From positions 124,001 through 188,000 of the forward strand of contig NZ_RSAA01000008.1 of NCBI RefSeq assembly GCF_003931915.1: a DNA stretch of 64,000 nucleotides, in the 5' to 3' direction. A program made the translations under genes and the position numbers. This stretch comes from Saccharopolyspora rhizosphaerae. Its GTDB lineage: Bacteria; Actinomycetota; Actinomycetes; Mycobacteriales; Pseudonocardiaceae. Under the pieces are notes generated by a model. That model was not told the DNA's origin. It saw only the letters and a program-made list of their open reading frames with translations, and searched no databases. This document shows positions 39,631 to 58,910 of this stretch, piece after piece; the stretch's first letter is position 1; every line of letters begins with the position of its first letter.

Positions 39631-39829
39631 GCGCTCGGTGTTCCTCCCCTGTCACGGCGCGTGAGCGGATTCGGCATCCGGGTGGCGGGCGGGGGGCGAT
39701 GGGCCCATCCGGAGATCCAGCATGCCAGGTCAAGGGCAGATCCCGATGCGGTCCACATCACCGGCCAGGCGTTTCGCCTGTTCACAGCGCATTTTTCGAC
39801 GAGCTCCGGATGACGTCCTCGGCCGATGA

Positions 39830-39859
39830 TGTACAGATGTACACGTGTGGTGTTAGGGT
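39830..39859 (+). promoter_or_regulatory. Promoter and paired TGTACA boxes of the choline operon
   Basis: Two TGTACA boxes separated by GA (39830-39843) lie upstream of TAGGGT (39854-39859), a usual actinobacterial -10. With the first box in the -35 place the spacing is 18. Transcripts from here would carry a leader of about 280 bases before the first gene at 40147. Confidence 0.5.
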
Positions 39860-40146
39860 CCTCTCCCGGCACCGCAGCCAATGACCCTGCGCGATGGGAT
39901 TTTCGTCGCGCGGAATTGGACCAAGAACGCGCCGCAGAGCCACCGAATGGACCACCAGGAGGTGAATTCGGAACCGGAGGTCGCCGAACAACGGCACCAT
40001 TCGGCGAATTGCTCCGCATCACCCGGTGCGGATTCGCGTGGCGACGAATCGGCGTCCGCCGCATTCTGAACTCGCCGCCTCGGGTGAAGCGTGTTCATCG
40101 GGATCGCGGACGCGGACACACCAGCGATGGAAAACGGGGAAGATCC
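39860..40146 (+). other. Long leader region before the aldehyde dehydrogenase gene
   Basis: About 287 bases between the presumed promoter and the first start codon, without an assigned gene. A 62-codon frame (39881-40069) opens with ATG but has no ribosome-binding site and no resemblance I recognise. The DNA is slightly less GC-rich than the flanking coding DNA. I could not match it to a known riboswitch class. Confidence 0.4.
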
Positions 40147-41640: not shown

Positions 41641-41796
41641 GGAGAGGAATCTTGTGTTCGGCGCGGCAGCCGGAGTGCGGCAGCGCCGCCCGCACGACAT
41701 CGCGGGAAGCGGGATTTCGCGCTGAGCAAACAACCAACCCGCGTCGTCGCCCCTGCCACCCGGCGGAGGCGGTCGGCCGGGGAAGGAGTTCGGGGC

Positions 41797-43344: not shown

Positions 43345-43362
43345 GTTCTGAAAGGAATGACC

Positions 43363-44916
43363 ATGACCGATCAGTTCGACTACGTCGTGGTGGGCGGTGG
43401 CAGCGCGGGTGCCGCGGTCGCGGCCCGGCTGTCGGAGGACCCCGACACCACCGTGTGCCTGCTCGAAGCCGGCCCCTCCGACGTCGGTGACAGCAACGTC
43501 CTCGAGCTCAAGAAGTGGATGGCGCTGCTGGAGTCCGGCTACGACTGGGACTACCTCATCGAGCCGCAGGAGAACGGCAACTCCTTCATGCGGCACGCCC
43601 GTGCCCGCGTGCTCGGCGGCTGCTCCTCGCACAACTCCTGCATCGCGTTCTGGGCTCCCGCCGAGGACCTCGACGAGTGGGAGTCGACGGGCCTGCCCGG
43701 CTGGGGCTCCAAGGACATGTTCCCGCTGTACAAGCGGCTGGAGACCAACGACGGCCCGGGTGACCACCACGGCCGCAGCGGCCCGGTGACCATCCGCTCG
43801 GTCCCGCCGAAGGACCCGACCGGCGTGGCGCTGCTGGAGGCTTGCGAGCAGCAGGGCATCCCGACCACCGAGTTCAACTCGGGCACGACCGTCACCCACG
43901 GCGCGAACTGGTTCCAGATCAACGCCAAGGAGGACGGCACCCGCTCCTCCTCGTCGGTCTCCTACCTGCACCCGGTCCTGGACCGGCCGAACCTGGAGAT
44001 CCGCACCAACGCCTGGGCCAAGGAGGTCACCTTCGACGGGACCCGCGCCACCGGTGTGGAGTACCTCAGCGACGACCTGATCCACTCGCGGACGGTCACC
44101 GCCCGCAAGGAGGTCGTGCTGTCCACCGGCGCGATCGACACCCCGAAGCTGCTGATGCTCTCCGGCATCGGACCGGCCGAGCACCTGCGCGAGTTCGGCA
44201 TCGACGTGCTGGTCGACTCCCCCGGCGTCGGCTCCACCCTGGAAGACCACCCCGAGGGCGTGATCAGCTGGGAGGCCAAGAAGCCGATGGTGCAGGACTC
44301 CACCCAGTGGTGGGAGATCGGCATCTTCACCCAGACCCAGGAGGGCCTGGACCGGCCGGACCTGATGTTCCACTACGGTTCGGTGCCCTTCGACATGCAC
44401 ACCGTGCGGCAGGGCTACCCGACCTCGGAAAACGCCTTCTGCCTGACCCCGAACGTCACCCGCGCGCGGTCCACCGGCACGGTCCGGTTGCGCAGCAAGG
44501 ACTTCCGGGACAAGGCCAAGGTCGACCCGAAGTACTTCACCGACCCGGAAGGTCACGACATCCGCGTCATGACCGAGGGCATCAAGCTGGCCCGCAAGAT
44601 CGTCTCGCAATCGCCGATGCAGGAGTGGGCCGGCACGGAGCTCTTCCCGGGCAAGGACGTGCAGACCGACGACGAGATCGCCGACTACATCAAGCGCACC
44701 CACAACACCGTCTACCACCCCGCGGGTTCGGTGAAGATGGGCGCCGTCGACGACGGGTCGAAGCCGCTCGACCCGCGGCTGCGCGTCAAGGGCGTGCAGG
44801 GCCTGCGCGTCGCCGACGCATCGGTGATGCCGTTCCTGGTCGCGGTGAACCCCAACATCACCACGATGGCCATCGGCGAGAAGTGCTCCGACATGCTCAA
44901 GCAGGACAACGCCTGA
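43363..44916 (+). CDS. codA: Choline oxidase-like GMC oxidoreductase
   Basis: 517 residues. Dinucleotide motif VVVGGGSAGAAVAARL at about 7-22. The sequence RVLGGCSSHNSC around His90 matches the His99 site that carries covalent FAD in Arthrobacter globiformis choline oxidase. VYHPAGSVKMG (His452) and NPNITTMAIGEKC (Asn496) match its catalytic His466/Asn510 pair. GMC signature 2 is GAIDTPKLLMLSGIGP. Choline oxidase makes glycine betaine and two H2O2, which fits the ALDH and permease genes. ATG at 43363 is preferred over the ATG six bases earlier because AAAGGA is then correctly spaced. Followed by terminator hairpins. Confidence 0.87.
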   Translation: MTDQFDYVVVGGGSAGAAVAARLSEDPDTTVCLLEAGPSDVGDSNVLELKKWMALLESGYDWDYLIEPQENGNSFMRHARARVLGGCSSHNSCIAFWAPAEDLDEWESTGLPGWGSKDMFPLYKRLETNDGPGDHHGRSGPVTIRSVPPKDPTGVALLEACEQQGIPTTEFNSGTTVTHGANWFQINAKEDGTRSSSSVSYLHPVLDRPNLEIRTNAWAKEVTFDGTRATGVEYLSDDLIHSRTVTARKEVVLSTGAIDTPKLLMLSGIGPAEHLREFGIDVLVDSPGVGSTLEDHPEGVISWEAKKPMVQDSTQWWEIGIFTQTQEGLDRPDLMFHYGSVPFDMHTVRQGYPTSENAFCLTPNVTRARSTGTVRLRSKDFRDKAKVDPKYFTDPEGHDIRVMTEGIKLARKIVSQSPMQEWAGTELFPGKDVQTDDEIADYIKRTHNTVYHPAGSVKMGAVDDGSKPLDPRLRVKGVQGLRVADASVMPFLVAVNPNITTMAIGEKCSDMLKQDNA

Positions 44917-45388: not shown

Positions 45389-46024
45389 TCAGCTGATCGT
45401 GGTCGTGGTGAGCGTGGGGTTGGGGTTCGGGAAGCAGGCCGACGGGACGTCGACGTCGCCGACCAGCGAGGACACGACCGCGGTGAAGGTCAGACCCGGG
45501 TCCTCGTAGCTGGTGCCGGCCAGCTTGGTCTCGATGGTGCCCGACTCACCGGCGGTCAGGTGCACGGTGATGGTGGGCAGCTCGAACTCGGCGCCCCCGG
45601 CGATCGGGCCGTCGAGGTGCAGCGTGGCCATGCCGTTCTCGACGTTGAGGGTCGGCGGGTTCGGGCCCAAGCCCGAACCACCGGCCAGGTCGGCCGAGAC
45701 GTAGGTGGAGTTCGCCGGGATCGGGATCTTCAGGTCGAACCCGCCGACCTCCTTGACGGTGTTGCCGTTGACCTCACCGGGGATGGTGTTCACCGCCGGG
45801 TCCACGACGACGTCGAAAGCCGCTCCGGGGGCGACGGTTTCGGGTGCTGTGACGTCGGTGGTCTGCTGCAGGCTGAACTCCTGGGCTCCCAGCGGGGAGT
45901 CACCGGAGCAGTCGAAGTTGACGTCGAAAGGAGCCGCCACCGCCTGCGGGGCGACGGCGAGCGCTGCGGTTGCGGCGAAAGCGGCAGCGATAGCGGCGCG
46001 CTTTCCACTGAGGACGGACTTCAT
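45389..46024 (-). CDS. Secreted beta-rich protein of unknown function
   Basis: 211 residues. Clear signal peptide: MKSVLSGKRAAIAAAFAATA then cleavage near AVAA-PF at about 30. The mature part has one Cys pair (CSGD near 39 and SACF near 197), many Gly, Pro, Thr and Val, and little helix, suggesting a beta-sandwich. It resembles small exported proteins of mycobacteria and relatives, but I cannot name the family. Monocistronic with its own promoter region of about 345 bases upstream. A surface or matrix protein is likely. Confidence 0.75.
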   Translation of the reverse strand: MKSVLSGKRAAIAAAFAATAALAVAPQAVAAPFDVNFDCSGDSPLGAQEFSLQQTTDVTAPETVAPGAAFDVVVDPAVNTIPGEVNGNTVKEVGGFDLKIPIPANSTYVSADLAGGSGLGPNPPTLNVENGMATLHLDGPIAGGAEFELPTITVHLTAGESGTIETKLAGTSYEDPGLTFTAVVSSLVGDVDVPSACFPNPNPTLTTTTIS

Positions 46025-46343
46025 CGGCCTCTCCTGCGTGTTTTGAGGGATACGAGAAGTGCTGCCCGCGCGGCGATCTGAAAACTACCGACGAGTAAAC
46101 AACTGGTCAACGGCGTTGTTTTTGCCGGACTTACCACCTGTGACGCACCGTCACCGCGCTGAGCCGACCGGGTCCGCACCACCGCCGTCCCAGCGAGAAC
46201 CGCTCCGCCGGCCGCATCCGGACGATCCGGACGAACCCGGCGCACCGGCACCGATCGTGATCGCCCGGCCACCCGTTCGGCCGTCCCGACATCACCCCGG
46301 GCTCGTCCCCCTCCGGTTCCCGGAGTTGGGGCTAGCGCGACAT
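46025..46343. promoter_or_regulatory. Divergent promoter region, secreted protein and HAD operon
   Basis: About 320 bases without a gene. The part next to the secreted-protein gene is AT-richer (46080-46140). The other end runs into the TetR operator at 46344. Confidence 0.4.
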
Positions 46344-46357
46344 ACCGTCTAGTCGGT
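46344..46357. promoter_or_regulatory. TetR-type operator in front of the HAD-APH-ACAD operon
   Basis: ACCGTCTAGTCGGT, flanked by T and A to make TACCGTCTAGTCGGTA, ends 12 bases before the ATG at 46370. It differs by one arm position from the perfect ACCGACCAGTCGGT at 58714-58727. The probable repressor is the TetR protein at 54825-55442. Confidence 0.7.
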
Positions 46358-46369
46358 ACGGTCCTGTCC

Positions 46370-47053
46370 ATGGGTTCCAGTGCTGCCGGCCCGACCGTGC
46401 GCGCGGTCGTCTTCGACTACGGAGGTGTGCTCACCACGCCCACGCGCGACTCGATCAACGCGTGGCTGGCCGAAGAGCGGATCCGCCCCGAGCTGTTCTC
46501 CGCGACGCTCAAGGAGTGGCTCTCGCGCAACGCACCCGCGGGCACCCCCGTGCACCTGCTGGAGACCGGGGAGCTCGACGCCGACGGGTTCAACAAGGCC
46601 ATGGCCGCCCGGTTGCGCACCGTCGACGACGAGCCCGTCGCCCCCGATGACCTGCTCGGACGGCTCTTCGGGCGGATGGGTCCGGAACCGGCCATGCTGA
46701 CGCTGGTGCGGGACCTGCGCGAGCGCGGGATCCGCACCGCACTGCTGTCCAACAGCTGGGGGAACATCGACGCCTACCCGTGGGAGCAGCTGGCGGGGTT
46801 GTTCGACTCCACCGTCCTCTCCGGTGAGGTGGGGCTGCGCAAGCCGGACCCGCGCATCTACCAGATGAGCCTCAACGCGCTCGGCCTTCCCGCCGAGCAG
46901 ACCGCCTTCGTCGACGACGGTGCGCCCAACGTCGACGCCGCCCGCGACCTGGGCATGCACGCCGTGCTGCACACCGGTCCGGCGGAGACCCGAACCCGGC
47001 TGGCCGAACTGCTGCCCGCCGGATCCGTACCGCAAGACGAGGAGACCAGGTGA
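46370..47053 (+). CDS. HAD-superfamily hydrolase, ACAD10 N-domain-like
   Basis: 227 residues. HAD motif I is VVFDYGGVLTTP at about 14-25: the nucleophile Asp is present but the usual second Asp two residues later is Gly (DYG), as in the HAD part of animal ACAD10. Motif II LLSNSWGN, motif III Lys in GLRKPDPRIY at about 158, motif IV FVDDGAPNVDAA. First of three genes that correspond in order to the HAD, kinase-like and dehydrogenase domains of ACAD10. Its stop overlaps the GTG of the next gene. Phosphatase activity is uncertain because of the missing acid. Confidence 0.82.
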   Translation: MGSSAAGPTVRAVVFDYGGVLTTPTRDSINAWLAEERIRPELFSATLKEWLSRNAPAGTPVHLLETGELDADGFNKAMAARLRTVDDEPVAPDDLLGRLFGRMGPEPAMLTLVRDLRERGIRTALLSNSWGNIDAYPWEQLAGLFDSTVLSGEVGLRKPDPRIYQMSLNALGLPAEQTAFVDDGAPNVDAARDLGMHAVLHTGPAETRTRLAELLPAGSVPQDEETR

Positions 47054-48087
47054 ACGCACCCGAGCCCGACGAGCTCCCCGGCCTCGACCTGCAACGGTTG
47101 CGGGCCTGCCTCGACGTCGAGATGCCCGGCATGGTCACCGGCGAACTCACCGGTCAGCTGGTGCAGGGCGGCCGCTCGAACCTGACCTACATCGTCAGCG
47201 ACGGCACCGAGCAGTGGGTGGTGCGCCGTCCGCCGCTGGGTCACGTGCTGGCCACGGCGCACGACATGAGTCGCGAGCACCGGATGCTCACCGCCCTGGC
47301 GGGCACCCGCGTGCCGGTGCCGCGCGCGGAGCTGCTGTGCCAGGACGAGGAGGTCCTCGGCGCGCCGTTCTACGTCATGGAGTACGTGCCCGGCACCGTC
47401 TTCCGCACGCCCGAGCAGACCGAAGCGCTCACCGAGCAGCAGCGGTACGACCTCTCCTACCAGCTGATGGACGTGCTCGCCGACCTGCACTCGATCGAAC
47501 CCGCCTCGGTGGGACTGGCCGAGTTCGGCCGCCCGGAAGGGTTCCTCGAGCGCCAGGTCCGCCGGTGGACCAAGCAGCTCAAGGCCTCCCACAGCCGCGA
47601 GGTCGAGGGCATCGACGAGCTCTCGCAGAAGCTGGCGGCCTCGGTCCCGACGGGTGGACCGGTCGGCATCGTGCACGGCGACTACCGCCTGGACAACGTC
47701 ATCGTGGGCGCCGACCAGCAGATCAAGGCCGTGCTGGACTGGGAGATGGCCACCATCGGCGACCCGCTCACCGACCTCGGCCTGCTGGCCGTCTACTGGG
47801 AGGGCTTCAGCGGGCTGGACAACAACCCGATCGCCAAGGGCGTCGGCCCGGAGTTCGGTTTCCCCAGCGCCGAGCAGCTCTTCCAGCGCTACGCCGAGCG
47901 CAGCGAGCTGGACCTGTCCGACCTGGACTGGTACTTGGCCTTCGGCTACTTCAAGATCGCCGTGATCTTGGAGGGCATCCACTACCGCTTCATCCACGGC
48001 CAGACCGTCGGCGAGGGCTTCGAGCACGTCGGTGGTCTGGTGGCTCCGCTCGTCGCGCAGGGCCTGGCGACCCTCAAGGAGGCATGA
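47050..48087 (+). CDS. APH-family phosphotransferase, ACAD11 N-domain-like
   Basis: 345 residues, aminoglycoside-phosphotransferase/choline-kinase fold: GRSNLTYIVS nucleotide loop at about 40, catalytic loop IVHGDYRLDNVIVG (Brenner motif, about 207-220) and metal Asp in LDWEMATIGDPLTDLG at about 233. The same domain heads animal ACAD11, where phosphorylation of a 4-hydroxyacyl-CoA prepares it for elimination. An antibiotic-resistance role is unlikely given the operon. GTG start overlaps the HAD stop by four bases, and the dehydrogenase gene starts three bases after its stop. Confidence 0.85.
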   Translation: MNAPEPDELPGLDLQRLRACLDVEMPGMVTGELTGQLVQGGRSNLTYIVSDGTEQWVVRRPPLGHVLATAHDMSREHRMLTALAGTRVPVPRAELLCQDEEVLGAPFYVMEYVPGTVFRTPEQTEALTEQQRYDLSYQLMDVLADLHSIEPASVGLAEFGRPEGFLERQVRRWTKQLKASHSREVEGIDELSQKLAASVPTGGPVGIVHGDYRLDNVIVGADQQIKAVLDWEMATIGDPLTDLGLLAVYWEGFSGLDNNPIAKGVGPEFGFPSAEQLFQRYAERSELDLSDLDWYLAFGYFKIAVILEGIHYRFIHGQTVGEGFEHVGGLVAPLVAQGLATLKEA

Positions 48088-48090
48088 GAG

Positions 48091-49308
48091 ATGGATTTCG
48101 CGTTCGACGCCCAGACTCAGGAGCTGCAGGGCGAGCTGCTGGAGTTCATGGACTCGCACATCTACCCGGCCGAGCCGGTGTTCGCCCAGCAGCTCAACGA
48201 GGCGCCGGACCGCTGGTCGGCCCACCCACCGATCATGGAGGAGCTCAAGGCCGCGGCGCGCAAGCGCGGTCTGTGGAACCTCTTCCTGCCCGGTGACCAC
48301 GGCGCGGGCCTGACCAACCTGCAGTACGCGCCGCTCGCGGAGATCATGGGCCGTTCCGGTGCGCTGGCCCCGGAAGCGACCAACTGCGCCGCACCGGACA
48401 CCGGGAACATCGAGGTGCTGACCCAGTTCGGCACCGAGGCCCAGCAGAAGCAGTGGCTGCAGCCGCTGCTGGAGGGCGAGATCCGCTCGGCGTTCTGCAT
48501 GACCGAGCCGGACGTCGCCTCCTCCGACGCGACCAACATCGGCACCCGGATCACCCGCGACGGCGACCACTACGTCATCAACGGCCGGAAGTGGTTCTCC
48601 TCGGGTGCGATGAGCCCGCGCTGCAAGGTCCTGATCGTGATGGGCAAGACCGACCCGTCCGCCGAGCGGCACCGCCAGCAGAGCCAGGTGCTGGTGCCCA
48701 AGGACACCCCGGGCATCGAGATCAAGCGCAGCATGAACGTCTTCGGCTACGACGACGCCGACCACGGCGGTCACGCCGAGATCGTGTTCAACGACGTGCG
48801 CGTTCCCGTCGAGAACGTCATCTCCGGTGAGGGCGAAGGTTTCGCGATCGCCCAGGCCCGGCTCGGGCCGGGCCGCATCCACCACTGCATGCGCGCCATC
48901 GGCATGGCCGAGCGGGCGCTGGAGCTGATGTGCCGGCGCACCACCGACCGCGTCGCCTTCGGCAAGCCGCTGGCCGAGCAGGGCGTGGTGCAGCACTGGA
49001 TCGCCGAGTCCCGCGTCAAGATCGAGCAGGCCCGGCTGCTGGTGCTCAAGACGGCGTGGCTGATGGACACCGTCGGCAACCAGGGCGCGCACACCGAGAT
49101 CCAGGCCATCAAGGTCGCGGTCCCGGAGATGACGACCTGGGTCATCGACCGCGCCATCCAGGCGCACGGCGGAGGCGGCGTCTCCCAGGAGTTCCCGCTG
49201 GCCTCGCTCTACGCCCACGCCCGCACGCTGCACCTGGTCGACGGGCCGGACGAGGTCCACCGCCGCTCCCTGGCGCGCCGCGAGCTCCGCAAGTACAAGA
49301 CGAAGTAA
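48091..49308 (+). CDS. Acyl-CoA dehydrogenase, ACAD10/ACAD11-like
   Basis: 405 residues, full [23 protein letters not shown] at about 136, [15 protein letters not shown] at about 169, C-terminal [20 protein letters not shown] and [16 protein letters not shown] at about 355. Near the end, [19 protein letters not shown] has Asp (DGPDE) where typical ACADs use a catalytic Glu, which is the ACAD10/11 pattern. Together with the HAD and APH genes it makes a three-gene version of what animals encode as one polypeptide. Probable substrate is a medium- or long-chain, possibly 4-hydroxylated, CoA ester. Followed by a strong hairpin. Confidence 0.87.
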
Positions 49309-49343
49309 CCCACCACCGCCCTCCCCCGTTACCCCTGACGGAA

Positions 49344-49379
49344 CCCCCGCCCCGGGTGCTCGGCCACCCGGGGCGGGGG
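49344..49379. terminator. Hairpin between the ACAD11-like gene and the SDR gene
   Basis: Perfect 15-bp stem CCCCCGCCCCGGGTG with its complement around CTCGGC. It splits the plus-strand gene cluster into two likely transcription units or attenuates the second. Confidence 0.7.
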
Positions 49380-49413
49380 AGGTTCACAAGCACAGAACAG
49401 CGAGGAGTTGTCC

Positions 49414-50169
49414 ATGGCTGAGAGGCGTGTCGCGATCGTCACCGGTGCCGCTCGCGGGATCGGCGCCGCCACCGCGAAGAGGCTGGCAGAAGACGGCTTC
49501 GCCGTCGGTGTCGTCGACCTCGACGAGAAGCAGTGCGCTGAAACGGTTTCGGCGATCGAGTCCGGCGGCGGCAAGGCGCTGGCCGTGGGGGCCAACGTCG
49601 CCGACGCCGAGCAGGTGCAGGCCGCCGTCGACAGGATCGCCTCCGAGCTGGGCGCACCGACCGTGCTGGTCAACAACGCCGGCGTGCTGCGCGACAACAT
49701 GCTGTTCAAGATGTCCGAGGACGACTGGGACACCGTGATGAACGTGCACCTGCGCGGCTCGTTCCTGATGGCCCGCGCGGTGCAGAAGCACATGGTCGAG
49801 GCCAAGTGGGGCCGGATCATCAACCTGTCGTCGACCTCGGCGCTGGGCAACCGCGGCCAGGCCAACTACTCCACCGCCAAGGCCGGTCTGCAGGGCCTGA
49901 CCAAGACCCTCGCGATCGAGCTGGGCAAGTTCGGCATCACCGCCAACGCCATCGCCCCGGGCTTCATCGCCACCGACATGACCAAGGCGACCGCCGAGCG
50001 CGTCGGCATGTCCTTCGAGGACTTCACCACCGCCGCGATCTCCCAGATCCCGGTGGGACGGGCCGGCAAGCCCGAGGACATCGCCAACACGGTCTCCTTC
50101 TTCGTCGACGAGCGTTCCGGCTTCGTCTCCGGCCAGGTCGTCTACGTGGCCGGCGGACCGAAGGCGTGA
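49414..50169 (+). CDS. FabG-like short-chain dehydrogenase/reductase
   Basis: 251 residues from ATG 49414, six bases after GAGGAG; a TTG two codons earlier is less likely. Rossmann loop TGAARGIGAATAKRL at about 9-23, NNAG at about 88, catalytic Ser in LSSTSAL and YxxxK in YSTAKAG at about 153. C-terminal GQVVYVAGGP. Closest in style to beta-ketoacyl-CoA/ACP reductases. In this setting it should oxidise a 3-hydroxyacyl-CoA. It overlaps the next dehydrogenase gene as GTGA. Confidence 0.85.
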   Translation: MAERRVAIVTGAARGIGAATAKRLAEDGFAVGVVDLDEKQCAETVSAIESGGGKALAVGANVADAEQVQAAVDRIASELGAPTVLVNNAGVLRDNMLFKMSEDDWDTVMNVHLRGSFLMARAVQKHMVEAKWGRIINLSSTSALGNRGQANYSTAKAGLQGLTKTLAIELGKFGITANAIAPGFIATDMTKATAERVGMSFEDFTTAAISQIPVGRAGKPEDIANTVSFFVDERSGFVSGQVVYVAGGPKA

Positions 50170-51353
50170 CCGCCGTGGACGCCACCGAGCTGCGCGGCCG
50201 GGTCCAGGAGTTCCTGGCCGCGCACGACCCGAAGAGCACCGACCGGCTGGAGTTCCTGCGCGCCCGGTTCGACGCCGGGCTCGCGTGGGTGCACTTCCCG
50301 GAGGGGCTGGGCGGCCTGGGCGCGGCCCGCGAGCTGCAGGCCGAGGTCGACGCCGCGTTCGCCGAGGCGGGCGCGCCCGACAACCAGCCGCAGACCAACG
50401 TCATCGGCCTGGGCATGGCCGCCCCGACGATCCTGCGGTTCGGCGACGACGAGCAGCGCCGCCGCTACCTCCGCCCGCTGTGGACCGGCGAGGAGATCTG
50501 GTGCCAGCTGTTCAGCGAGCCGGGCGCGGGCTCGGACCTCGCTGCGCTGTCCACCCGTGCGGTCCGGGACGGCGACGAGTGGGTCGTCGACGGGCAGAAG
50601 GTGTGGACCTCGCTGGCGCACAAGGCCCGCTGGGCGATCCTGGTGACCCGCTCGGACCCGGACCAGCCCAAGCACAAGGGGCTGACGTACTTCATCTGCG
50701 ACATGACCGCCCCGGGCGTGGAAGTCCGCCCGCTGCGGCAGATCACGGGTGAGGCCGAGTTCAACGAGGTCTTCCTGAGCGGGGTGCGCATCCCCGACTC
50801 GCAGCGGCTCGGCGAGGTCGGCCAGGGCTGGTCGGTCGCGCTGGGCACGTTGATGAACGAGCGGGTCGCGATCGGTGGCCGCACTCCCCCGCGCGAGAGC
50901 GGTCTCATCGGCGCCGCCGCCGAGCAGTGGCGCGAGCACCCTGAGAAGCGCACTCCCGGCCTGCACGACCGGTTGCTGGAGCTGTGGGTGGAGGCCGAGG
51001 CCGTGCGGCTGTCCAGCATCCGGCTGCGCCAGCAGATGGCCGTCGGCGAACCCGGGCCGGAGGGGTCGGCGATCAAGTCGGCCTTCGCCGAGCTCAACCA
51101 GCGGATCACCGGCTACCAGCTGGAGCTGCTGGGCGAGGAGGGCCTGGAGTACGACGACTGGACGTTCCGCCAGCCCGAGTACACCGACTTCACCAAGCGG
51201 GGTCCCGGTTTCCGCTACCTGCGGGCCCGGGGCAACACGATCGAGGGCGGGACGACGGAGGTCCTGCGCAACGTCATCGCCGAGCGGGTCCTCGGGTTGC
51301 CACCGGAGATCCGGACCGACAAGGACAAGCCGTGGAAGGAGCTGCCGCGATGA
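50166..51353 (+). CDS. Acyl-CoA dehydrogenase, large-type subunit
   Basis: 395 residues. N-terminal domain is short; LFSEPGAGSDLAALSTRAV at about 117 and KVWTSLAHKARWAIL at about 144 mark the FAD-binding beta domain. The C-terminal NTIEGGTTEVLRNVIAERVL keeps the Glu (IEGG) expected for a catalytic base, in contrast to FadE30 and FadE31. An insertion at about 325-345 (LEYDDWTFRQPEYTDF) is typical of the actinobacterial alpha subunits that pair with a short partner, here the next gene, with which it overlaps by four bases. Confidence 0.85.
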   Translation: MTAVDATELRGRVQEFLAAHDPKSTDRLEFLRARFDAGLAWVHFPEGLGGLGAARELQAEVDAAFAEAGAPDNQPQTNVIGLGMAAPTILRFGDDEQRRRYLRPLWTGEEIWCQLFSEPGAGSDLAALSTRAVRDGDEWVVDGQKVWTSLAHKARWAILVTRSDPDQPKHKGLTYFICDMTAPGVEVRPLRQITGEAEFNEVFLSGVRIPDSQRLGEVGQGWSVALGTLMNERVAIGGRTPPRESGLIGAAAEQWREHPEKRTPGLHDRLLELWVEAEAVRLSSIRLRQQMAVGEPGPEGSAIKSAFAELNQRITGYQLELLGEEGLEYDDWTFRQPEYTDFTKRGPGFRYLRARGNTIEGGTTEVLRNVIAERVLGLPPEIRTDKDKPWKELPR

Positions 51354-52447
51354 CGGACCTGCTCTACACCGAGGTCGAGGAGGACCTGCGCTCCGGCGTG
51401 CGCCGGGTGCTGCGGGACCGCTGCGACTGGACGGCCGTCCTAGCCCGCGTCGAGACCGACGAGCCCTACGACCTGGAGCTGTGGCGCTCGCTGGCCGGTG
51501 AGATGGGGCTGGCGGGCCTGCTGGTCCCGGAGGAGCTGGGCGGCGCCGGTGCCACGGCGCGGGAGCTGTCGGTGGTGGCCGAGGAGATCGGCCGCGCGGT
51601 CGCCCCGGTCCCGTTCCTGAGCACCGTGCTGGCGACCACCGCGTTGGCGGGCTGCGGGGAGACGTCCGTGCTCCCGCAGCTGGTGGAGGGCTCGAAGGTG
51701 GGCACGGTCGCCGTCGGCCTGACCACGGTCCCGCACGCGCCGTTCCCGCAAGCGGTGAAGGCCGAGGGCTCGGCGCTGACCGGCACGGTGTCGGCAGTGG
51801 TCGACCTCGAGGTGGCCGACCACGTGGTCGTCCCGGCCGTGGACACCGACGGCTCGGCACTGTACCTCGTGGAGGCCGCCGCGGCGACGCGCACGCCGAC
51901 GACTCCGCTGGACCTGACCCGGCGCCTCGGCGTGCTGAGCCTCGACGGCACTCCCGGCGAGCGCATCGCCTCCGGCGCGGAGGCGGAGCGCGTTCTGCGC
52001 CGAGCGCTGGTCACGGCGGCGGGGACGCTGGCCGCCGAACAGGTCGGGCTCGCCCAGCACTGCCTGGACACCACCGTCGAGTACGGCAAGACCCGCTACC
52101 AGTTCGGCAGGCAGATCGGGTCGTTCCAGGCCGTCAAGCACCGCTTGGCCGACCTGTGGACGAAGATCAGCATGGCGCGTGCGGTCTCCCGCAACGCCTC
52201 CGACGCGCTGGCCTCGGGCAGCGAGGAGGAGCTGGCGGTGGCGCTGGCCCAGGCCTACACCTCCGACCTCGTGGTCCGCGCGGCCGAGGAGCACTTGCAG
52301 CTGCACGGTGGCATCGGCATGACCTGGGAGCACCCCGCGCACCTGTACCTCGGCCGCGCGAAGAGCTCCCAGCTCACCTTCGGCATCGCCGAGGCACACC
52401 GCGCCCGGATCGCCGAACTCGTCGACCTTCCCGGAGGAAGCGCATGA
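51350..52447 (+). CDS. Acyl-CoA dehydrogenase, small-type partner subunit
   Basis: 365 residues. Reduced beta domain, with conserved helical blocks PEELGGAGATARELSVVAEE at about 58, TRYQFGRQIGSFQAVKHR at about 244 and QLHGGIGMTWEHPAHLYLGR at about 317. Same architecture as the fadE gene at 7601. Probably forms an alpha2beta2 enzyme with the preceding gene. Start and stop both overlap neighbours by four bases, so expression is tightly coupled with the ACAD before and the MaoC hydratase after. Confidence 0.84.
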   Translation: MTDLLYTEVEEDLRSGVRRVLRDRCDWTAVLARVETDEPYDLELWRSLAGEMGLAGLLVPEELGGAGATARELSVVAEEIGRAVAPVPFLSTVLATTALAGCGETSVLPQLVEGSKVGTVAVGLTTVPHAPFPQAVKAEGSALTGTVSAVVDLEVADHVVVPAVDTDGSALYLVEAAAATRTPTTPLDLTRRLGVLSLDGTPGERIASGAEAERVLRRALVTAAGTLAAEQVGLAQHCLDTTVEYGKTRYQFGRQIGSFQAVKHRLADLWTKISMARAVSRNASDALASGSEEELAVALAQAYTSDLVVRAAEEHLQLHGGIGMTWEHPAHLYLGRAKSSQLTFGIAEAHRARIAELVDLPGGSA

Positions 52448-52896
52448 AGGTTTTCACCAGCAAGGAAGAGATCCTCGCCGCCAAGGGTGAGCAGCTGGGC
52501 ACCAGCGAGTGGCTGACCATCACCCAGGAGCAGGTCAACACCTTCGCCGACGCGACCCACGACCACCAGTGGATCCACGTCGACGTCGAGAAGGCCCAGA
52601 GCGGTCCGTTCGGCGGGCCGATCGCCCACGGCTTCCTGACCTTGAGCCTGCTGCCCAAGCTGAACTCGGAGACCTTCCGGGTCGAGAACGTCAAGATGGG
52701 CATCAACTACGGTCTGAACAAGGTCCGGTTCCCCTCGCCGGTGCCGGTCGGTTCCCGGGTGCGCTCGACGACCGAGCTCGTCGACGCCACCGAGATCGAG
52801 GGCGGCCTCCAGCTCGCGGTGAAGTCCACTGTGGAGATCGAGGGTGCCGACAAGCCCGCCTGCGTCGCGGAGTTCCTGACCCGCGTCCTGCTCTGA
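52444..52896 (+). CDS. MaoC-family enoyl-CoA hydratase (HtdZ/Rv0130-like)
   Basis: 150 residues, complete single-domain R-hydratase: WLTITQEQVNTFADATHDHQ at about 23, with catalytic Asp/His in ATHDHQWIHVD, then GPIAHGFLTLSLLPKL. Length and motif agree with the Rv0130/HtdZ group, active as homodimers. It completes a beta-oxidation set (dehydrogenase, hydratase, SDR) in this cluster; a thiolase is missing locally. Ends 21 bases before a perfect terminator stem. Confidence 0.88.
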   Translation: MKVFTSKEEILAAKGEQLGTSEWLTITQEQVNTFADATHDHQWIHVDVEKAQSGPFGGPIAHGFLTLSLLPKLNSETFRVENVKMGINYGLNKVRFPSPVPVGSRVRSTTELVDATEIEGGLQLAVKSTVEIEGADKPACVAEFLTRVLL

Positions 52897-52917
52897 GCGC
52901 AGGTCCCGTCGTTCCAC

Positions 52918-52955
52918 CGAGGTGGGGAAGTTCCCGCGGGAACTTCCCCACCTCG
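52918..52955. terminator. Perfect 18-bp terminator stem between convergent genes
   Basis: CGAGGTGGGGAAGTTCCC pairs perfectly with its complement, with GC at the tip. It is flanked by TCTTCT and serves the MaoC gene (plus) and AbgT gene (minus). Confidence 0.87.
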
Positions 52956-52960
52956 TCTTC

Positions 52961-54517
52961 TCACGGCTGGACGTGGATACCCATGCCCGGACCGAGCGGG
53001 ATGTCGGCGAAGTAGAAGACCGTCATGACCAGCGCCCACAGCAGCCAGAACGGGACCACGAAGGGCACCATCCGGGCCACCAGGGTGCCGATCCCGGCGT
53101 GCGGTTCGTAGCGGCGCAGGTAACCCAGGATGATGATCATGTACGGGTTCAGCGGCGTCATGATCTGGGTCGCGGAGTCACCGACGCGGAATGCCGCCTG
53201 CGCGAAGCCGGGTTCGAACCCCAGCAGCGCGAACATCGGCACGAACACCGCCGCCATCAACGTCCACAGGCTCGACCCGGAGATGATGAACAGGTTCAGC
53301 AGCGAGGCGAGCAGCATGAACCCGAGGAACGCCGGGTAGCCGTCCAGGTGCAGCGACTGCAGCAGGTCCGCCCCGGAAACCGCCACCAGCGCACCGAGGT
53401 TCGTCCAGTTGAACAGCGCGATGAACTGCCCGAGCATGAACGCCAGCACCAGGAACCCGGTCAGCTCGCGCAGCGACAGCGCCATCAGCCGGGGCACGTC
53501 GGCGGGCTTGGTGATCGACCCCGCCTTGGCGCCGTAGGCGATCGCCGGCACGGCGAAGCCGAGGAAGATCAGCGTGGTCACCGAGTCCATCAGCGGCGAG
53601 TCCGGCAGGAAACCGCCCTCGTCGTTGGCCAGCGGCGAGTCCGGCCAGAACACCAGCAGCAGCACCAGCGCGGTCGTGACCAGGAACGAGATCCCGGCCC
53701 ACACCAGGCCCCGGCGCTCGGCCGGTTCCAGCGCGACCTTGAGGTCACCCTCCGGCTCGCCGTCGACGACCTCGCGCGCGACCCCGTTGCGGACCAGGCG
53801 CGGCTCGACGAGCCGGTCGATGAGGAACCCGGCCAGCAGCCCCAGCAGCACGGCCGAGACCGCGTTGAAGTAGTAGTTCGACACCGGGGTGACCAGCGTG
53901 CCCGGGTTCGGCAACGTCTCGGCCACCGTGTTGCTGATCCCGGAGAACAGCGCGTCCAGGCTGGTGACCACGATCGACGTCGAGTAGCCGGCTCCGGTCG
54001 CGGCGAAGCCGCCGAGCAGACCGGCGACCGGGTGCCGCCCAGCGGCTTTGAACACCAGCGCCGCCAGCGGCGGGATGATGATCATCGCCGAGTCGGCCAT
54101 CACGCTGGCGCTGACCCCGACCAAGCCCACCGCGTAGGGCAGCACCGCGCCGCGCGCGCTGCCGAACGACGACCTGATCAGCGCGGTCAGCAGGCCGGTC
54201 CGCTCGGCGAGCCCGACCGCCAGCATGATCGTGACGACCGTTTCCAGCGGCGGGAACCCGATGAAGTTCTCCGCCATCTTCGTGAACAGGAACTCCAGGC
54301 CCTCACCGGTGAACGCGCCGCGGATCGGCGTCGCCTTCTCGGCACCGGGGAGGGTGACCGTGACCCCGAACGCCGAGATCGCCGTCGAGACGACGGCCAC
54401 CACCAGGAACAGCAGTCCGAACAGGATGAACGGTTCGGGGAGCTTGTTGCCGATCCGCTCGATGAGGTTGAGGACGCGGTCCAGGCGCGGTGAACGCGCC
54501 ACTTCGGTCTCGCTCAA
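52961..54517 (-). CDS. AbgT-family transporter
   Basis: 518 residues with about eleven membrane helices. AbgT hallmarks: IGNKLPEPFILFGLLFLVV at about 22-40, a hairpin with GLVGVSASVMADSAMIIIPP at about 133-152 and SLWTLMAAVFVPMFALLG at about 418-435. PTxxN-type NPYMI near 466. Family members (AbgT, MtrF, YdaH) move p-aminobenzoyl-glutamate or export sulfonamides and related drugs with H+ exchange. Start appears to be TTG at 54517 with GGAG nearby. Not obviously linked to either neighbouring operon. Confidence 0.9.
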   Translation of the reverse strand: MSETEVARSPRLDRVLNLIERIGNKLPEPFILFGLLFLVVAVVSTAISAFGVTVTLPGAEKATPIRGAFTGEGLEFLFTKMAENFIGFPPLETVVTIMLAVGLAERTGLLTALIRSSFGSARGAVLPYAVGLVGVSASVMADSAMIIIPPLAALVFKAAGRHPVAGLLGGFAATGAGYSTSIVVTSLDALFSGISNTVAETLPNPGTLVTPVSNYYFNAVSAVLLGLLAGFLIDRLVEPRLVRNGVAREVVDGEPEGDLKVALEPAERRGLVWAGISFLVTTALVLLLVFWPDSPLANDEGGFLPDSPLMDSVTTLIFLGFAVPAIAYGAKAGSITKPADVPRLMALSLRELTGFLVLAFMLGQFIALFNWTNLGALVAVSGADLLQSLHLDGYPAFLGFMLLASLLNLFIISGSSLWTLMAAVFVPMFALLGFEPGFAQAAFRVGDSATQIMTPLNPYMIIILGYLRRYEPHAGIGTLVARMVPFVVPFWLLWALVMTVFYFADIPLGPGMGIHVQP

Positions 54518-54824: not shown

Positions 54825-55442
54825 TCAGGGCCGCAGGGAGTCGAGCAGGAGGTCTGCGAAGTGCTCTCCTACTTCTTGGCCCGAGAGCTTGCCGTCTTCG
54901 CGGAACCAGGTGCCGAGGTGGTGCACAGCGCCGAAGAAGAAGTCCACCACCAGGTCCGCCGACTTGTCGGTGCGGAACACCCCGGTGGCCTGGCCCTCTT
55001 CGATCAGGCCGCGCACCCGCTCGTGGTACCGGCGCCGCTCGGCGCGCACCTCCGCCTGCTTGTCCGGGTGCAGCAGGTGCATCGACCGGAAGAAGATGAT
55101 CGTGTCCTCGAGGTTGGCCGCAGTGGTGGCCACGACGTCGGAAGCCGCCGAGTGCAGCCGTTCCTGGACCGGGGAGTCGCTGTCGGCCGCGCTCTCCAGC
55201 CGCGCTTGCTGGTCCCGCAGCACCCGGGCGTAGATCTCGTAGAGCAGGTCGTCCTTGGAGCCGAAGTAGTGGTACATCGCGCCCTTGGTGACGCCCGCGG
55301 CGTCGACGATCTGCTGCACCGAGGTGGCTTCGAAGCCCTGCTCGGCGAACAACCGGGTGGCTACGGCCAGCAACCGCTGCGGAACCGGTTCGGTGCCCGC
55401 CTCCCCGTCGGTGGACGTGCGTGCGTTGGCCGACCGCGCCAT
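54825..55442 (-). CDS. TetR-family regulator of the fadD and HAD operons
   Basis: 205 residues. TetR helix-turn-helix at about 22-68 (LFAEQGFEATSVQQIVDAAG, then GAMYHYFGSKDDLLYEIY), with a ligand domain of the TetR_C_33/KstR2-like helical type (VRGLIEEGQATGVFRTD, VVDFFFGAVHHLGTWF). Such regulators generally bind acyl-CoA. Last gene of fadD-SDR-SDR-tetR, so probably autoregulated through the operator at 58714. The matching operator at 46344 makes it the likely controller of the HAD operon too. ATG 55442 preceded by GGGAGGA. Confidence 0.85.
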   Translation of the reverse strand: MARSANARTSTDGEAGTEPVPQRLLAVATRLFAEQGFEATSVQQIVDAAGVTKGAMYHYFGSKDDLLYEIYARVLRDQQARLESAADSDSPVQERLHSAASDVVATTAANLEDTIIFFRSMHLLHPDKQAEVRAERRRYHERVRGLIEEGQATGVFRTDKSADLVVDFFFGAVHHLGTWFREDGKLSGQEVGEHFADLLLDSLRP

Positions 55443-55474
55443 CGTTCCTCCCTCGTCGATGCCCTCCCGCAAGC

Positions 55475-56251
55475 CTAGACGGGCCGTTGTTCGACCTTGC
55501 GCTGCAGCTTGCGCATGCCCGCCTGCCAGCGCTCCGGCTGGGCCGCCCGCAACGCGTAGTAGTCGGCGACCTCCGGGTGCGGCAGGATCAAGAACTCCTC
55601 GCCACCCAGTTTCTCCGCCACCGCTTCGGCGACGTCGGAGGGCTCGATGGCGCTGTCGGCCATGAGGAACTGACCGGTCTCGCCGGTGGACTCCAGCAGT
55701 TGGGTCCGCACGCCCTGCGGGCACAGCGCCTGAGCCGTGACGCCCTTGGCCGCGTAGGTGATGTTGAGGTACTCGGCGAAGGCCACCGCGGCGTGCTTGG
55801 TCACCGAGTACGGCGCGGACCCGAGCATCGTCAGCAGCCCGGCCGCCGAAGCGGTGCCGAGGAAGTGCCCCTGACCGCGCTCGAGCCAGTGCGGCAGCAC
55901 CGCCCGGGCCGCGCGCACGTGGGACATCACGTTGACCTCCCACGACGCGGCCCAGGCGTCCTCGTCCGCTTCCGGTCCGCCGTCGCGGCCGATACCGGCG
56001 TTGGCGCAGAACACGTCGATCCGGCCGTGCTCACCCATCGCGGCGTCGACGAGCTCGGCCACGCCCTGCTCACTGGCGACGTCCCCGGGCACGGCGATGC
56101 CGCCGACCTCGCCGGCGACCCGGCGGACCGCGTCCGAATCGAGGTCGCCGAGCACGGTCTTGGCGCCGAGCGCGGCGAACTTGTGGGCCATCGCGGCACC
56201 GATGCCGTTGCCGGCACCGGTGATGATCACGACCGAATCGGCCAGGTTCAC
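55475..56251 (-). CDS. Short-chain dehydrogenase/reductase
   Basis: 258 residues. TGAGNGIGAAMAHKF at about 11, CANAG (for NNAG) at about 83, catalytic Ser in GTASAAGL and YxxxK in YSVTKHA at about 149. GTG at 56251 begins one base after the stop of the preceding SDR, so both are in one transcript. The extended C-terminus (about 210-258, Arg/Gln-rich) is longer than in FabG-type reductases. Substrate not evident. Its operon (fadD, two SDRs, tetR) suggests oxidation of a hydroxyacyl-CoA or a hydroxy acid. Confidence 0.82.
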   Translation of the reverse strand: MNLADSVVIITGAGNGIGAAMAHKFAALGAKTVLGDLDSDAVRRVAGEVGGIAVPGDVASEQGVAELVDAAMGEHGRIDVFCANAGIGRDGGPEADEDAWAASWEVNVMSHVRAARAVLPHWLERGQGHFLGTASAAGLLTMLGSAPYSVTKHAAVAFAEYLNITYAAKGVTAQALCPQGVRTQLLESTGETGQFLMADSAIEPSDVAEAVAEKLGGEEFLILPHPEVADYYALRAAQPERWQAGMRKLQRKVEQRPV

Positions 56252-56252
56252 G

Positions 56253-57005
56253 TCACATACCGCCCTTCAGGGTCGAGCCGCCGTCGAGGACCAGGACCTG
56301 CCCGGTGATCCAGGAGGCCTCCTCGGAGAGCAGGAACGCCGCCGCACCGGAGATGTCCGACGGGATGCCCAAGCGCCCCAACGGGTACCCCGCGGCCACC
56401 TCGGCCTCGTTGTCGGCGTAGAGCGCGGTGGCGAACTTGGTCTTCACCACGGCCGGTGCGATCGCGTTGACCCGCACCTGCGGGGCCAGCTCCACCGCGA
56501 GCTCCTGGGTCATGTGCGCCAGCATCGCCTTGGTGGCGCCGTAGAAACCGATGCCGGGCGCGGGGTTCAGACCGGCCACAGAGGACACGTTGAGCACCGA
56601 ACCGCCGTGCTCGGCCATCCCCGCGCGGAAGACCTGCTGAGTCCACGACAGCGCGGCGAGCACGTTGACCTGGAAGGTCTTCTGCGCCACGCCGTGGTCC
56701 AGCTCGATCATCGGCCCGAAGGCGGGGTTGATGCCGGTGTTGTTGACCAGCACGTCGACCCGGCCGAAGGCCTCGGTGGTCTTGGCGACGACCTCCGCCT
56801 GGTGGTCGACGTCGTCGGCCTTGCCCGCGATGCCCAGCGCGTTGTCCTTGCCGAGGCTCTCCACGGCTTCGGCCAGCGGTTCCGGCTTGCGGGCGGTGAT
56901 GGTGACCTTGGCGCCCTCGGCGACGAGGCGCTCGGCGATGGCCAGTCCGATTCCCCGGCTGGCACCGGTCACGATCGCCACTCGCCCGTCGAAACGCTTG
57001 CTCAC
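56253..57005 (-). CDS. Short-chain dehydrogenase/reductase
   Basis: 250 residues from GTG 57005 after an AAGGA site. TGASRGIGLAIAERL at about 12, NNTG (for NNAG) at about 87, Ser in VSSVAG and YxxxK in YGATKAM at about 154. C-terminal WITGQVLVLDGGSTLKGGM is typical of FabG-like 3-oxoacyl reductases. It starts 17 bases after the fadD stop. Redundancy with the next SDR suggests two oxidation steps or two chain lengths. Confidence 0.84.
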   Translation of the reverse strand: MSKRFDGRVAIVTGASRGIGLAIAERLVAEGAKVTITARKPEPLAEAVESLGKDNALGIAGKADDVDHQAEVVAKTTEAFGRVDVLVNNTGINPAFGPMIELDHGVAQKTFQVNVLAALSWTQQVFRAGMAEHGGSVLNVSSVAGLNPAPGIGFYGATKAMLAHMTQELAVELAPQVRVNAIAPAVVKTKFATALYADNEAEVAAGYPLGRLGIPSDISGAAAFLLSEEASWITGQVLVLDGGSTLKGGM

Positions 57006-57022
57006 TGTTTCATCCTTCCGTG

Positions 57023-58693
57023 TCACTCGCCGGCTCGTGCTTCCTCGCGCAGTTGCCGGCGCAAGATCTTTCCGGTCGCGGTTTTCGGGAGTTCGTCGAG
57101 GACTTCGACGCTCCGCGGGTACTTGTAGGCGGCGAGCTGCTTCCTGCAGTGCTCGACGAGCTCCTCGCCGGTGGCGGTGCTGCCGTGGGAGAGGCTGATG
57201 AAGGCCTTCACGGTCTCACCGCGGTAGGCGTCGGGGACGCCGACGACGGCGGCTTCGCGCACCGCGGGGTGTCCGTAGAGGACGTCTTCGACCTCGCGCG
57301 GCCACACCTTGAAGCCCGAGGCGTTGATCATGTCCTTCTTCCGGTCCACGACGTAGAACCAGCCCTGCTCGTCCATGAACCCGACGTCGCCGGTGTGCAA
57401 CCGCCCGTCGCGGATGGCCGCTTCGGTCTCCTCCGGCTTGTTCCAGTAGGACGGGACCACCATCGGGCCTTCGATGACGATCTCACCGATCTCGCCGACA
57501 GGCAGGTCGGCACCGTTCTCGTCGACCACCCGCAGCACGGTGTTGTAGGTGGGCACGCCGACGGCGAGGGTGCCGGAGGCGGCGTCGACCGGCGCTTCCG
57601 CGCCGAGCGGGACGGAGGTCGCGGTCGCGGTGGTCTCGGTGAGCCCGTAGCCGTTGCGGATGTAGAGGCCGAAGCGCTCGCGGAAGGCCTCGACCACCGC
57701 CGAGGGCAGCGGCGCTCCACCGGAGTGGACCATCCTCAGCGAGGCGAAGTGCTCCGGCGTGACCTCGGGGTGGTTCATCAGCGCCATGTAGGCGGTCGAC
57801 GGGCCGACCATGAACGCGGGCCGGTGCTCGGCGAGCGCGTCGAGCACGACGCCGGGCTCGAAGCGGTAGGCCAGGTCCAGCTGCCGACCGGCGGCCAGCG
57901 CAGCGGCGAACTGCACGACGAGCCCCGTGATGTGGAACAGCGGCGCGAGCGCGAAGATCCCGCCCGGGGTGTCGTCGGTCAGCCGCAGGGCCGTTCCCTC
58001 GGCGTTGAACACGACGTTGCCGTGGGTGTTGGTGGCGCCCTTGGGGACGCCGCTGGTGCCCGAGGTGTAGACCAGCAGCGCGACGTCCGACGCGGCCGGT
58101 GAGACCGCGGGCGGGCACTCGCCGGCGTGCGCGCGGGCCACGGCGAGCAGGTCGGCGCACCCGGCGGCGGGACGGCGCTCGGTGCGGGCGAACAACCGCT
58201 GGTCGTGCCGGGTCTGCAGGTCGAGCTCGCTGGTGGTGATCGCGGTACCGATCTCCAGCGCCTGCGCGACGCCGCCCACGACCTCGTGCCAGCCCTGCTC
58301 GGAGGAGATCACGGCCGCCGGCCGGGCGTCGCCGAGGATCTTGGTGAGCTCGTGGGTGCGGTACATCGGGTTGAGCGGGACGACGATCGCGCCGGCCTTC
58401 CAGCCGGCGAGCACGGCGATGGCGAACTGCGGGACGTTCTGCAGGTAGACGGCGATCCGGTCGCCCTGCGCGACGCCGCTCTCCACCAGGTGGCAGGCCA
58501 GGCCGTTGCTGAGCTCGTCGAGCTCGGCGAAGGTCAGCCGCCCGTCGAAGTAGGTGAGCGCGATCTCGTCGGCGTGCTCCCGGACGGTCTCCGCGAACAG
58601 CTCGACCAGGTTGGCGTGCCGCGGCTCGATCTCGGCCGGGAGATCGCCCTCGTAGAGACCCAGCCACGGCCGTTCGTCGTACACGCTGCCCAA
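57023..58693 (-). CDS. FadD-like acyl-CoA synthetase
   Basis: 556 residues, adenylate-forming superfamily. P-loop-like YTSGTSGVPKGATNTHGN at about 202-219, NGYGLTETTA at about 339, adenylate motif GRLHTGDVGFMDEQGWFYVVD at about 416, RKKDMINASGFKVWPREVE at about 438 and the catalytic Lys in PKTATGKILRR near 541. It activates fatty or related acids to CoA thioesters at the start of its operon. TTG at 58693 seven bases after GGAGG is favoured over the GTG nine bases later. Longer than FadD3 (503), so not assigned as the HIP-CoA synthetase. A perfect palindromic operator lies 21 bases upstream. Confidence 0.88.
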   Translation of the reverse strand: MGSVYDERPWLGLYEGDLPAEIEPRHANLVELFAETVREHADEIALTYFDGRLTFAELDELSNGLACHLVESGVAQGDRIAVYLQNVPQFAIAVLAGWKAGAIVVPLNPMYRTHELTKILGDARPAAVISSEQGWHEVVGGVAQALEIGTAITTSELDLQTRHDQRLFARTERRPAAGCADLLAVARAHAGECPPAVSPAASDVALLVYTSGTSGVPKGATNTHGNVVFNAEGTALRLTDDTPGGIFALAPLFHITGLVVQFAAALAAGRQLDLAYRFEPGVVLDALAEHRPAFMVGPSTAYMALMNHPEVTPEHFASLRMVHSGGAPLPSAVVEAFRERFGLYIRNGYGLTETTATATSVPLGAEAPVDAASGTLAVGVPTYNTVLRVVDENGADLPVGEIGEIVIEGPMVVPSYWNKPEETEAAIRDGRLHTGDVGFMDEQGWFYVVDRKKDMINASGFKVWPREVEDVLYGHPAVREAAVVGVPDAYRGETVKAFISLSHGSTATGEELVEHCRKQLAAYKYPRSVEVLDELPKTATGKILRRQLREEARAGE

Positions 58694-58713
58694 CGCCCTA
58701 CCTCCACTGTGAG

Positions 58714-58727
58714 ACCGACCAGTCGGT
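58714..58727. promoter_or_regulatory. TetR-type operator upstream of fadD
   Basis: ACCGACCAGTCGGT, a perfect 6-2-6 palindrome (extended by GTA on one side), 21 bases before the fadD start. The related site at 46344-46357 fronts the HAD-APH-ACAD operon. Confidence 0.75.
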
Positions 58728-58910
58728 ACGGCCAGTCAACGATCGATCGGCGCTCCCGTCAAGAGGCGATCCGCCGACACTTCGAAGTCGTCGGCACCCG
58801 CCTGCCGGGCGACCGGGCACACGGACGCCGCAGGAGGAGGAATCCGGTCAGAGCAGCCACTCCGTCACCATCCGCAACATCGGTACTGCAGAGGGTGACT
58901 TCTCGTTGCC

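Follow-up and report, generated by a model that had tools for sequence, protein, structure and literature searches.

What does a free-standing HAD protein do beside a kinase and a dehydrogenase that resemble the parts of an animal enzyme? This question is raised by a locus of Saccharopolyspora rhizosphaerae (contig NZ_RSAA01000008.1), in which the genes of a HAD protein, an APH-fold kinase and an acyl-CoA dehydrogenase (ACAD) succeed one another on the plus strand of the 64,000-nt stretch that we analyzed (hereafter the window; all positions are window coordinates). The three proteins have the expected Pfam domains and their genes show the high third-position G+C typical of coding sequence. 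The original prediction had presented them as consecutive overlapping genes and as a counterpart of animal ACAD10 and ACAD11. The HAD and APH genes do overlap, by the 4 nt GTGA (47050-47053), but the APH and ACAD genes are 3 nt apart. All the motifs that it had listed are present: DYGG in the HAD protein, HGDYRLDN (residue 209) and LDWE (residue 229) in the kinase, and DGPDE, with Asp at the catalytic position, in the ACAD.

We propose that the trio belongs to a catabolic system that is under TetR control, acts on acids carrying an oxygen function at carbon 4 and would include the HAD protein as a dedicated partner of the kinase. We put the probability of this explanation as a whole at roughly 0.72; its core, phosphorylation of a hydroxyl followed by elimination, we regard, taken alone, as very likely. 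A bacterial route of this kind, as originally predicted, is our best reading of the locus, but the route is not new, since it has been published as the Pseudomonas lva pathway and for ACAD10 and ACAD11 (PMC6692424, PMC12440821, PMC11342911), and the idea that the whole of it was novel was rejected. As described in these papers, ACAD10 phosphorylates 4-hydroxyacyl-CoA and then eliminates the phosphate, its kinase and ACAD domains being replaceable by bacterial orthologues (Paquay and co-workers, PMC11342911), and in Pseudomonas putida LvaE, LvaD, LvaA with LvaB, and LvaC convert levulinate to 3-hydroxyvaleryl-CoA (PMC6692424).

The Asp-type dehydrogenase and the kinase

The best matches of the window ACAD in the PDB are ACAD11 structures (8v3u, mouse ACAD11, 475 bits; 8v3v, 473; 2wbi, 472; E 1.6e-141), followed by an uncharacterised homologue (4hr3, 457 bits), whereas ordinary ACADs start at 169 bits and go down from there. 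DGPDE lies at residue 384, and its first Asp occupies the catalytic position, that of D753 in mouse ACAD11; indeed, 8v3v, the D753N structure, reads NGPDE at this place. The special features described for mouse ACAD11 are R626, the HCMR motif and the catalytic D753 (Rashan and co-workers, PMC12440821). All of them are found in the window ACAD, as R257, HCMR 265-268 and D384, and R262 aligns with the generally conserved R631 (the numbers of the paper equal the chain index + 1 at matched places).

Among the 109 distinct ACADs of the fetched loci, the full combination (R, R, H, C or A, R, D) is present in 98 of the 99 that score 450 bits or more, the 99th being cut short, in all six of the 250-450 class and in none of the four weaker ones. 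The fetched loci include 80 named ACAD loci, the best 80 of more than 595 stretches matching two peptide patterns; they are mostly actinobacterial, with many related Streptomyces. The Asp part of the count is biased, because one of the patterns holds DGPDEVH; the R..HCMR part is free of this bias. By these comparisons, the window dehydrogenase is of the ACAD10/ACAD11/LvaC type, and phosphate elimination is its predicted function. A second, distant class of Asp-type ACADs (250-282 bits to the window ACAD) was also noticed, with DGPSE or DGASE and R....R..H[CA]MR, as were tandem LvaC-type ACAD genes, closely followed by an APH gene on the minus strand, in a Rhodospirillaceae metagenome-assembled genome (L106:6001-8421).

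The kinase gives a similar picture. Its PDB matches are 9o56 (216 bits), 3dxp (183-184 bits) and ACAD11 (175-179 bits, about 1e-51), after which the score drops to 49 bits for 9fsg, the 25-hydroxysteroid kinase. Its D211, N216 and R168 align with D220, N225 and R176 of ACAD11. Judged from sequence, the window kinase belongs with that of ACAD11 (LvaA/ACAD11 type) and is predicted to phosphorylate 4-hydroxyacyl-CoA; that kinase and ACAD are both homologous to their ACAD10/11 counterparts appears beyond reasonable doubt. Elsewhere in the same genome (contig C7, L023), two further APH genes, whose products score 252 and 69 bits against the window kinase, lie together with a 161-bit ACAD gene, perhaps another hydroxyl-kinase cluster.

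The two enzymes might nonetheless act on a different hydroxylated CoA ester or on an alcohol, for instance an acid that is branched or derived from a ring; the PimC/PimD-like ACAD pair and the MaoC protein encoded downstream would then serve a special carbon source. The 25-hydroxysteroid kinase, likewise an APH-fold kinase that readies a hydroxyl for elimination, has a steroid as its substrate. We consider this alternative unlikely: the window kinase scores 179 bits with ACAD11 and merely 49 with the steroid kinase, and the phosphate-binding residues of the ACAD match those of the 4-phospho site.

The likeness to known systems extends beyond single residues. Animal ACAD10 and the trio share the HAD-kinase-ACAD order, a DxGG motif in the HAD, the HGD motif of the kinase, R....R..HCMR and the catalytic Asp, with identities to the ACAD10 of three animals of 57-58% for the ACAD, 34-36% for the APH and 27-30% for the HAD; ACAD10 is a fusion, whereas the window has three separate genes, beside ligase, short-chain dehydrogenase (SDR) and MaoC genes. 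ACAD11 (8v3u, 8v3v) has the same types of kinase and ACAD with the same active-site residues; it lacks a HAD, and the window parts are separate polypeptides. Compared by its published description, the P. putida lva operon likewise clusters a kinase, an Asp-type ACAD, an SDR and an AMP-dependent ligase. The window differs from it by a TetR regulator in place of the sigma54-dependent LvaR and by the additional HAD, MaoC, SDR_A and ACAD pair; no LvaR-type sigma54-dependent regulator was found among the neighbouring genes scanned, and a TetR gene lies in the cluster. The original view of the trio as an ACAD10/11 counterpart stands for the kinase and the ACAD, by their best solved relatives and their active-site residues.

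A HAD gene recurrently linked to the kinase gene

The HAD protein was surveyed in three sets of genomes; only part of the candidates was scored in most of them (up to 24 per genome in the order, 12 for the HAD and 7 for the ACAD in the phylum, 12 in another phylum), so that the genome counts are lower bounds. In the order, it occurs (E 1e-25 or better) in at least 19 of 121 genomes, the window's included; of the 18 other HADs, ten lie no farther than 6 kb from an LvaC-type ACAD, and four of those ten also no farther than 300 bp from an APH gene. Across the 246 genomes of the phylum, at least 36 have the HAD and at least 86 an LvaC-type ACAD. Besides the window's, there are 41 HAD hits: a same-strand APH gene lies at most 300 bp away in 19 of them and an LvaC-type ACAD at most 6 kb away in six, one or the other being present in 23. 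The APH gene lies upstream of the HAD gene in all 19 linked loci, opposite to the order in the window, which is shared by L024-L027, L054 and L072. Note that six of the 19 (L131, L135, L138, L202, L203 and L210) also have an ACAD of the second Asp-type class, whose phosphate-binding pattern is the same, adjoining the APH-HAD pair.

HAD and kinase also occur within one polypeptide. Four predicted proteins (P0006, P0008, P0009 and P0011, one named Actinomycetota) form a HAD-APH fusion family, for which a predicted model (pLDDT 81.7, pTM 0.60) says nothing about the interface; two others (P0022, P0023) have an APH followed by a HAD, with an unlike stretch between, and were not counted as clean fusions. 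An APH gene is present in 61 of the 80 named ACAD loci and a HAD gene in five, four of these near (L054, L072, L112, L120). The gene-order survey across actinobacteria foreseen by the original prediction thus shows a HAD-kinase linkage that recurs in both orders: given the locus, order and phylum counts, the HAD protein is a recurrent partner of the kinase, an optional one whose linkage is nevertheless found again and again. Our literature search found no description of a bacterial HAD protein in such a partnership.

Could the HAD gene be a chance bystander in the operon? Its absence from 75 of the 80 named ACAD loci would fit, as would the 18 of 41 phylum hits, some of them at contig ends, that lack both kinds of neighbour (an APH gene at up to 300 bp, an LvaC-type ACAD at up to 6 kb). 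We hold this to be most improbable, in view of the linkage in both gene orders, of the fusion family and of an operator-like site (see below) that immediately precedes the HAD gene in the window as well as in L024, L025, L026 and L054. Moreover, controls were unlinked: none of seven lower-scoring HADs of the same phylum (140-160 bits, two at short contig ends) and none of 13 HADs from another phylum (the one containing a Rhodospirillaceae genome, presumed to be Pseudomonadota; HAD at E 1e-25 in at least 13 of 249 genomes) has such neighbours, an APH or an LvaC-type ACAD gene being looked for in the latter case.

These absences nevertheless count against the system as we propose it, and they are not alone in doing so. 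No HAD was found in the fetched Streptomyces stretches, and eight of the 18 order-level HADs are without a nearby ACAD or APH gene (including L029, on a 4.5-kb contig, and L013, fetched in part). The four HAD-APH fusions are 85-87% identical and therefore represent one lineage. TIGR02247, the best family of the window HAD, is reached with 95.6 bits, under its curated cut-off of 125.4. In the kinase, numbering yields no Arg for the published R86, located beside the alpha-C Glu; an Arg-Glu pair is seen at R75-E76. Finally, the roles suggested below for an SDR and the ligase have neighbourhood and gene fusions as their basis.

The active site of the HAD protein was then compared. Motif I reads DYGGV at residue 16, a DxD motif that would be complete but for the second Asp, replaced by Gly in 16 of 16 rows of a first alignment (which took 15 of the 18 order-level relatives, omitting L033, L035 and L037) and in at least 90% of the 61 rows of a larger one. 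D16, K158 and D182/D183 do not vary among these 61 HADs, and the conservation of S127 is 90% or more. The DYGG motif as proof of a dead HAD was rejected: Escherichia coli YihX (DLGN) has the same replacement and is a working phosphatase, with glucose 1-phosphate as its substrate (PMC4251788).

This conservation bears on how the HAD would act. In ACAD10, mutation of the HAD nucleophile D48 gave a higher kinase output, while the phosphatase activity of the HAD on 4-phosphohydroxyhexanoyl-CoA was described as negligible, the data not being shown by the authors (PMC11342911). The bacterial HAD probably either holds the kinase back or removes the phosphate from the product of that kinase. It is conceivable, if not what we would expect, that the HAD is no regulator at all but an ordinary active phosphatase destroying surplus or wrong-isomer 4-phosphoacyl-CoA, the pathway being otherwise as proposed. 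Catalytic residues conserved across the 61 HADs, unlike those of a decayed enzyme, speak for such a phosphatase, as do YihX and the lva cluster of Pseudomonas citronellolis LA18T: in the account given of that region, which reports no lvaB, a phosphatase-family gene adjoins the lvaA homologue, although it encodes a histidine phosphatase, not a HAD (PMC6692424). By contrast, the activity of the ACAD10 HAD, as reported, is too little to explain the effect of the mutant (PMC11342911).

The original prediction had also implied a common origin with the HAD of ACAD10, which is not established. Pairwise BLAST places the window HAD at roughly equal distance from YihX (68 bits) and from three animal ACAD10 HADs (63-80 bits); these three pass TIGR02247 (165-268 bits), whereas the HADs of the window, P0006, L039 and L133 score 81-115. 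A free unrooted tree (75 rows) groups the ACAD10 HADs with the phosphatase domains of soluble epoxide hydrolase (sEH), which differ in retaining DLDG, and with other-phylum HADs (99/97), away from the actinobacterial HADs. However, an approximately unbiased (AU) test on 72 rows (L194, P0006 and L144, long or doubtful, were dropped) rejected neither a clade of ACAD10 and actinobacterial HADs (p 0.289) nor one of ACAD10 and sEH (p 0.542). The separate origin suggested by the free tree is thus not sustained either. A Saccharopolyspora mangrovi protein is 94% identical to the window HAD.

A linked operon and a common operator-like site

Beyond what had been predicted, the HAD operon has in common with a minus-strand operon (54825-58693) an operator-like site, seen before the first gene of each (Table 1). 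The search pattern was a symmetric version of the first site, which was thus bound to match; the other site in the window is independent of it. At up to three mismatches, 0.04 such sites were expected, and none of 100 shuffles had two sites. We extended the search to 88 chosen loci (1.10 Mb; the 80 named loci plus L024-L028, L040, L121 and L191, many of them from related Streptomyces): 30 sites with at most two mismatches were found, spread over 25 loci, where three Markov copies gave 0, 0 and 1, and 29 of the 30 lie no more than 173 bp ahead of a system gene, counted from its aligned start. A whole-genome search gave a result close to its reversed-pattern control (7+6 versus 5+2) and was not used. 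In acyl-CoA regulons, TetR_C_24 proteins act through sites of this kind; we infer that the local TetR protein binds those found here.

Table 1. Features of the two operons and the intervening region (window coordinates; relatives counted in the 80 named ACAD loci over our own score thresholds)
Feature	Position	Strand	Remarks
TetR-type operator-like palindrome TACCGTCTAGTCGGTA	46343..46358	.	11 bp before HAD start codon; spotted by eye
HAD protein, 227 aa	46370..47053	+	D16 (nucleophile), Gly18 replacing second Asp, S127, K158, D182/D183
APH-fold kinase, 345 aa	47050..48087	+	PF01636, 187 bits; D211, N216, R168
LvaC/ACAD10-11-type ACAD	48091..49308	+	R257, R262, H265, C266, M267, R268, catalytic Asp384
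Strong G+C-rich stem-loop, ACAD/SDR_A intergenic	49344..49379	+	-38.6 kcal/mol for 49338-49384; no T run
SDR_A, FabG-like SDR	49414..50169	+	start ATG 49414 or TTG 49408
ACAD2, PimC-like ACAD	50166..51353	+	possible GTG start 50166 overlaps SDR_A stop
ACAD3, PimD/IpdE2-like ACAD	51350..52447	+	Phe at catalytic column
MaoC-type enoyl-CoA hydratase	52444..52896	+	PF01575, 104 bits
AbgT-family transporter, between both operons	52961..54517	-	PF03806, 485 bits
TetR regulator (TetR_N, TetR_C_24)	54825..55442	-	relatives in 31/80
SDR_B	55475..56251	-	relatives in 35/80
SDR_C	56253..57026	-	PF13561; relatives in 10/80
AMP-dependent acyl-CoA ligase	57023..58693	-	PF00501, 276 bits; relatives in 22/80
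Second operator-like site	58713..58728	.	19 nt upstream of ligase open reading frame; 2 mismatches to TACCGACTAGTCGGTA

Gene fusions connect the minus-strand operon to kinases of the same fold, and relatives of the ligase and of one SDR also adjoin such kinases in other loci. SDR_B is 47-56% identical to the SDR half of four SDR-APH fusions (P0001-P0003, P0019), and the window ligase is 52.6% identical to the ligase half of the ligase-APH fusion P0004; in further ligase-APH fusions (P0005, P0007, P0041), the ligases are merely 26-30% identical to it. By precomputed Pfam assignments, the APH kinases of P0004, P0005, P0007, P0013 and P0016 are fused to acyl-CoA ligases, to a thiolase, or to a crotonase with a hydroxyacyl-CoA dehydrogenase. 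The linkage of the two operons, the common site and the recurrence of the HAD beside the kinase are direct observations, as are the genes, their residues and the conservation of these.

On the plus strand, the hydratase, SDR and two further ACADs do follow the trio downstream, as originally noted; in the 80 named loci, relatives were counted for MaoC in 16, ACAD2 in 12, ACAD3 in 12 and SDR_A in nine, and for the AbgT transporter in none above threshold. ACAD2 has IEGGTTEV near the catalytic column, its Glu being placed one column off by the alignment. A second very stable stem-loop (52918-52955) follows the MaoC gene, between the convergent operons, with no T run behind it in a pattern scan; in 45900-53100, pattern searches revealed neither a sigma70-like promoter nor a T-run terminator. 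Farther upstream, genes for an aldehyde dehydrogenase, an amino-acid permease and a GMC oxidoreductase lie in a row (39826-44916), an arrangement known from choline or betaine oxidation, and a minus-strand gene stands between them and the HAD operon; a RES-domain protein is encoded at 59579-60235, just past the ligase operon.

Proposed pathway and its meaning

For the reactions and the substrate, we infer the following sequence. The AMP-dependent ligase would convert the acid into its CoA ester. Reduction of a 4-oxo group to a 4-hydroxyl by an SDR may follow; this is the weakest step of the scheme. The APH kinase would then phosphorylate the 4-hydroxyl, and the Asp-type ACAD would eliminate the phosphate: Asp384 would take the alpha proton while a hydride passes to FAD, the phosphate, held by R257, H265 and R268, would be expelled, and the hydride would be handed back from FAD, leaving 2-enoyl-CoA. 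This product would be hydrated by the MaoC protein and oxidised by SDR_A, and ACAD2 and ACAD3 would serve in ordinary rounds of beta-oxidation. The HAD protein, as a dedicated partner of the kinase, would limit the build-up of 4-phosphoacyl-CoA, either by keeping the kinase in check, as in ACAD10, or through hydrolysis of the phosphoester.

A more general proposal can be put forward tentatively, with somewhat less than even confidence: that, in actinobacteria at large, the free-standing HAD recurs as a brake dedicated to the 4-hydroxyacyl-CoA kinase, the partnership having been made more than once. Repeated HAD-kinase partnerships, in operons of either order, in a fusion and in animal ACAD10, would then indicate that the regulatory HAD of ACAD10 reflects a general need. 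If this is true, the need would be that of holding down 4-phosphoacyl-CoA, and it would explain the puzzling HAD domain of ACAD10. Since HAD and kinase exist as separate, freely mixable proteins in several actinobacterial lineages and in both orders, the question can be directly tested there. The finding marks a probable regulated 4-hydroxy acid route in actinobacteria, and the residue signature, together with the operator-like site, offers a means of finding this route elsewhere.

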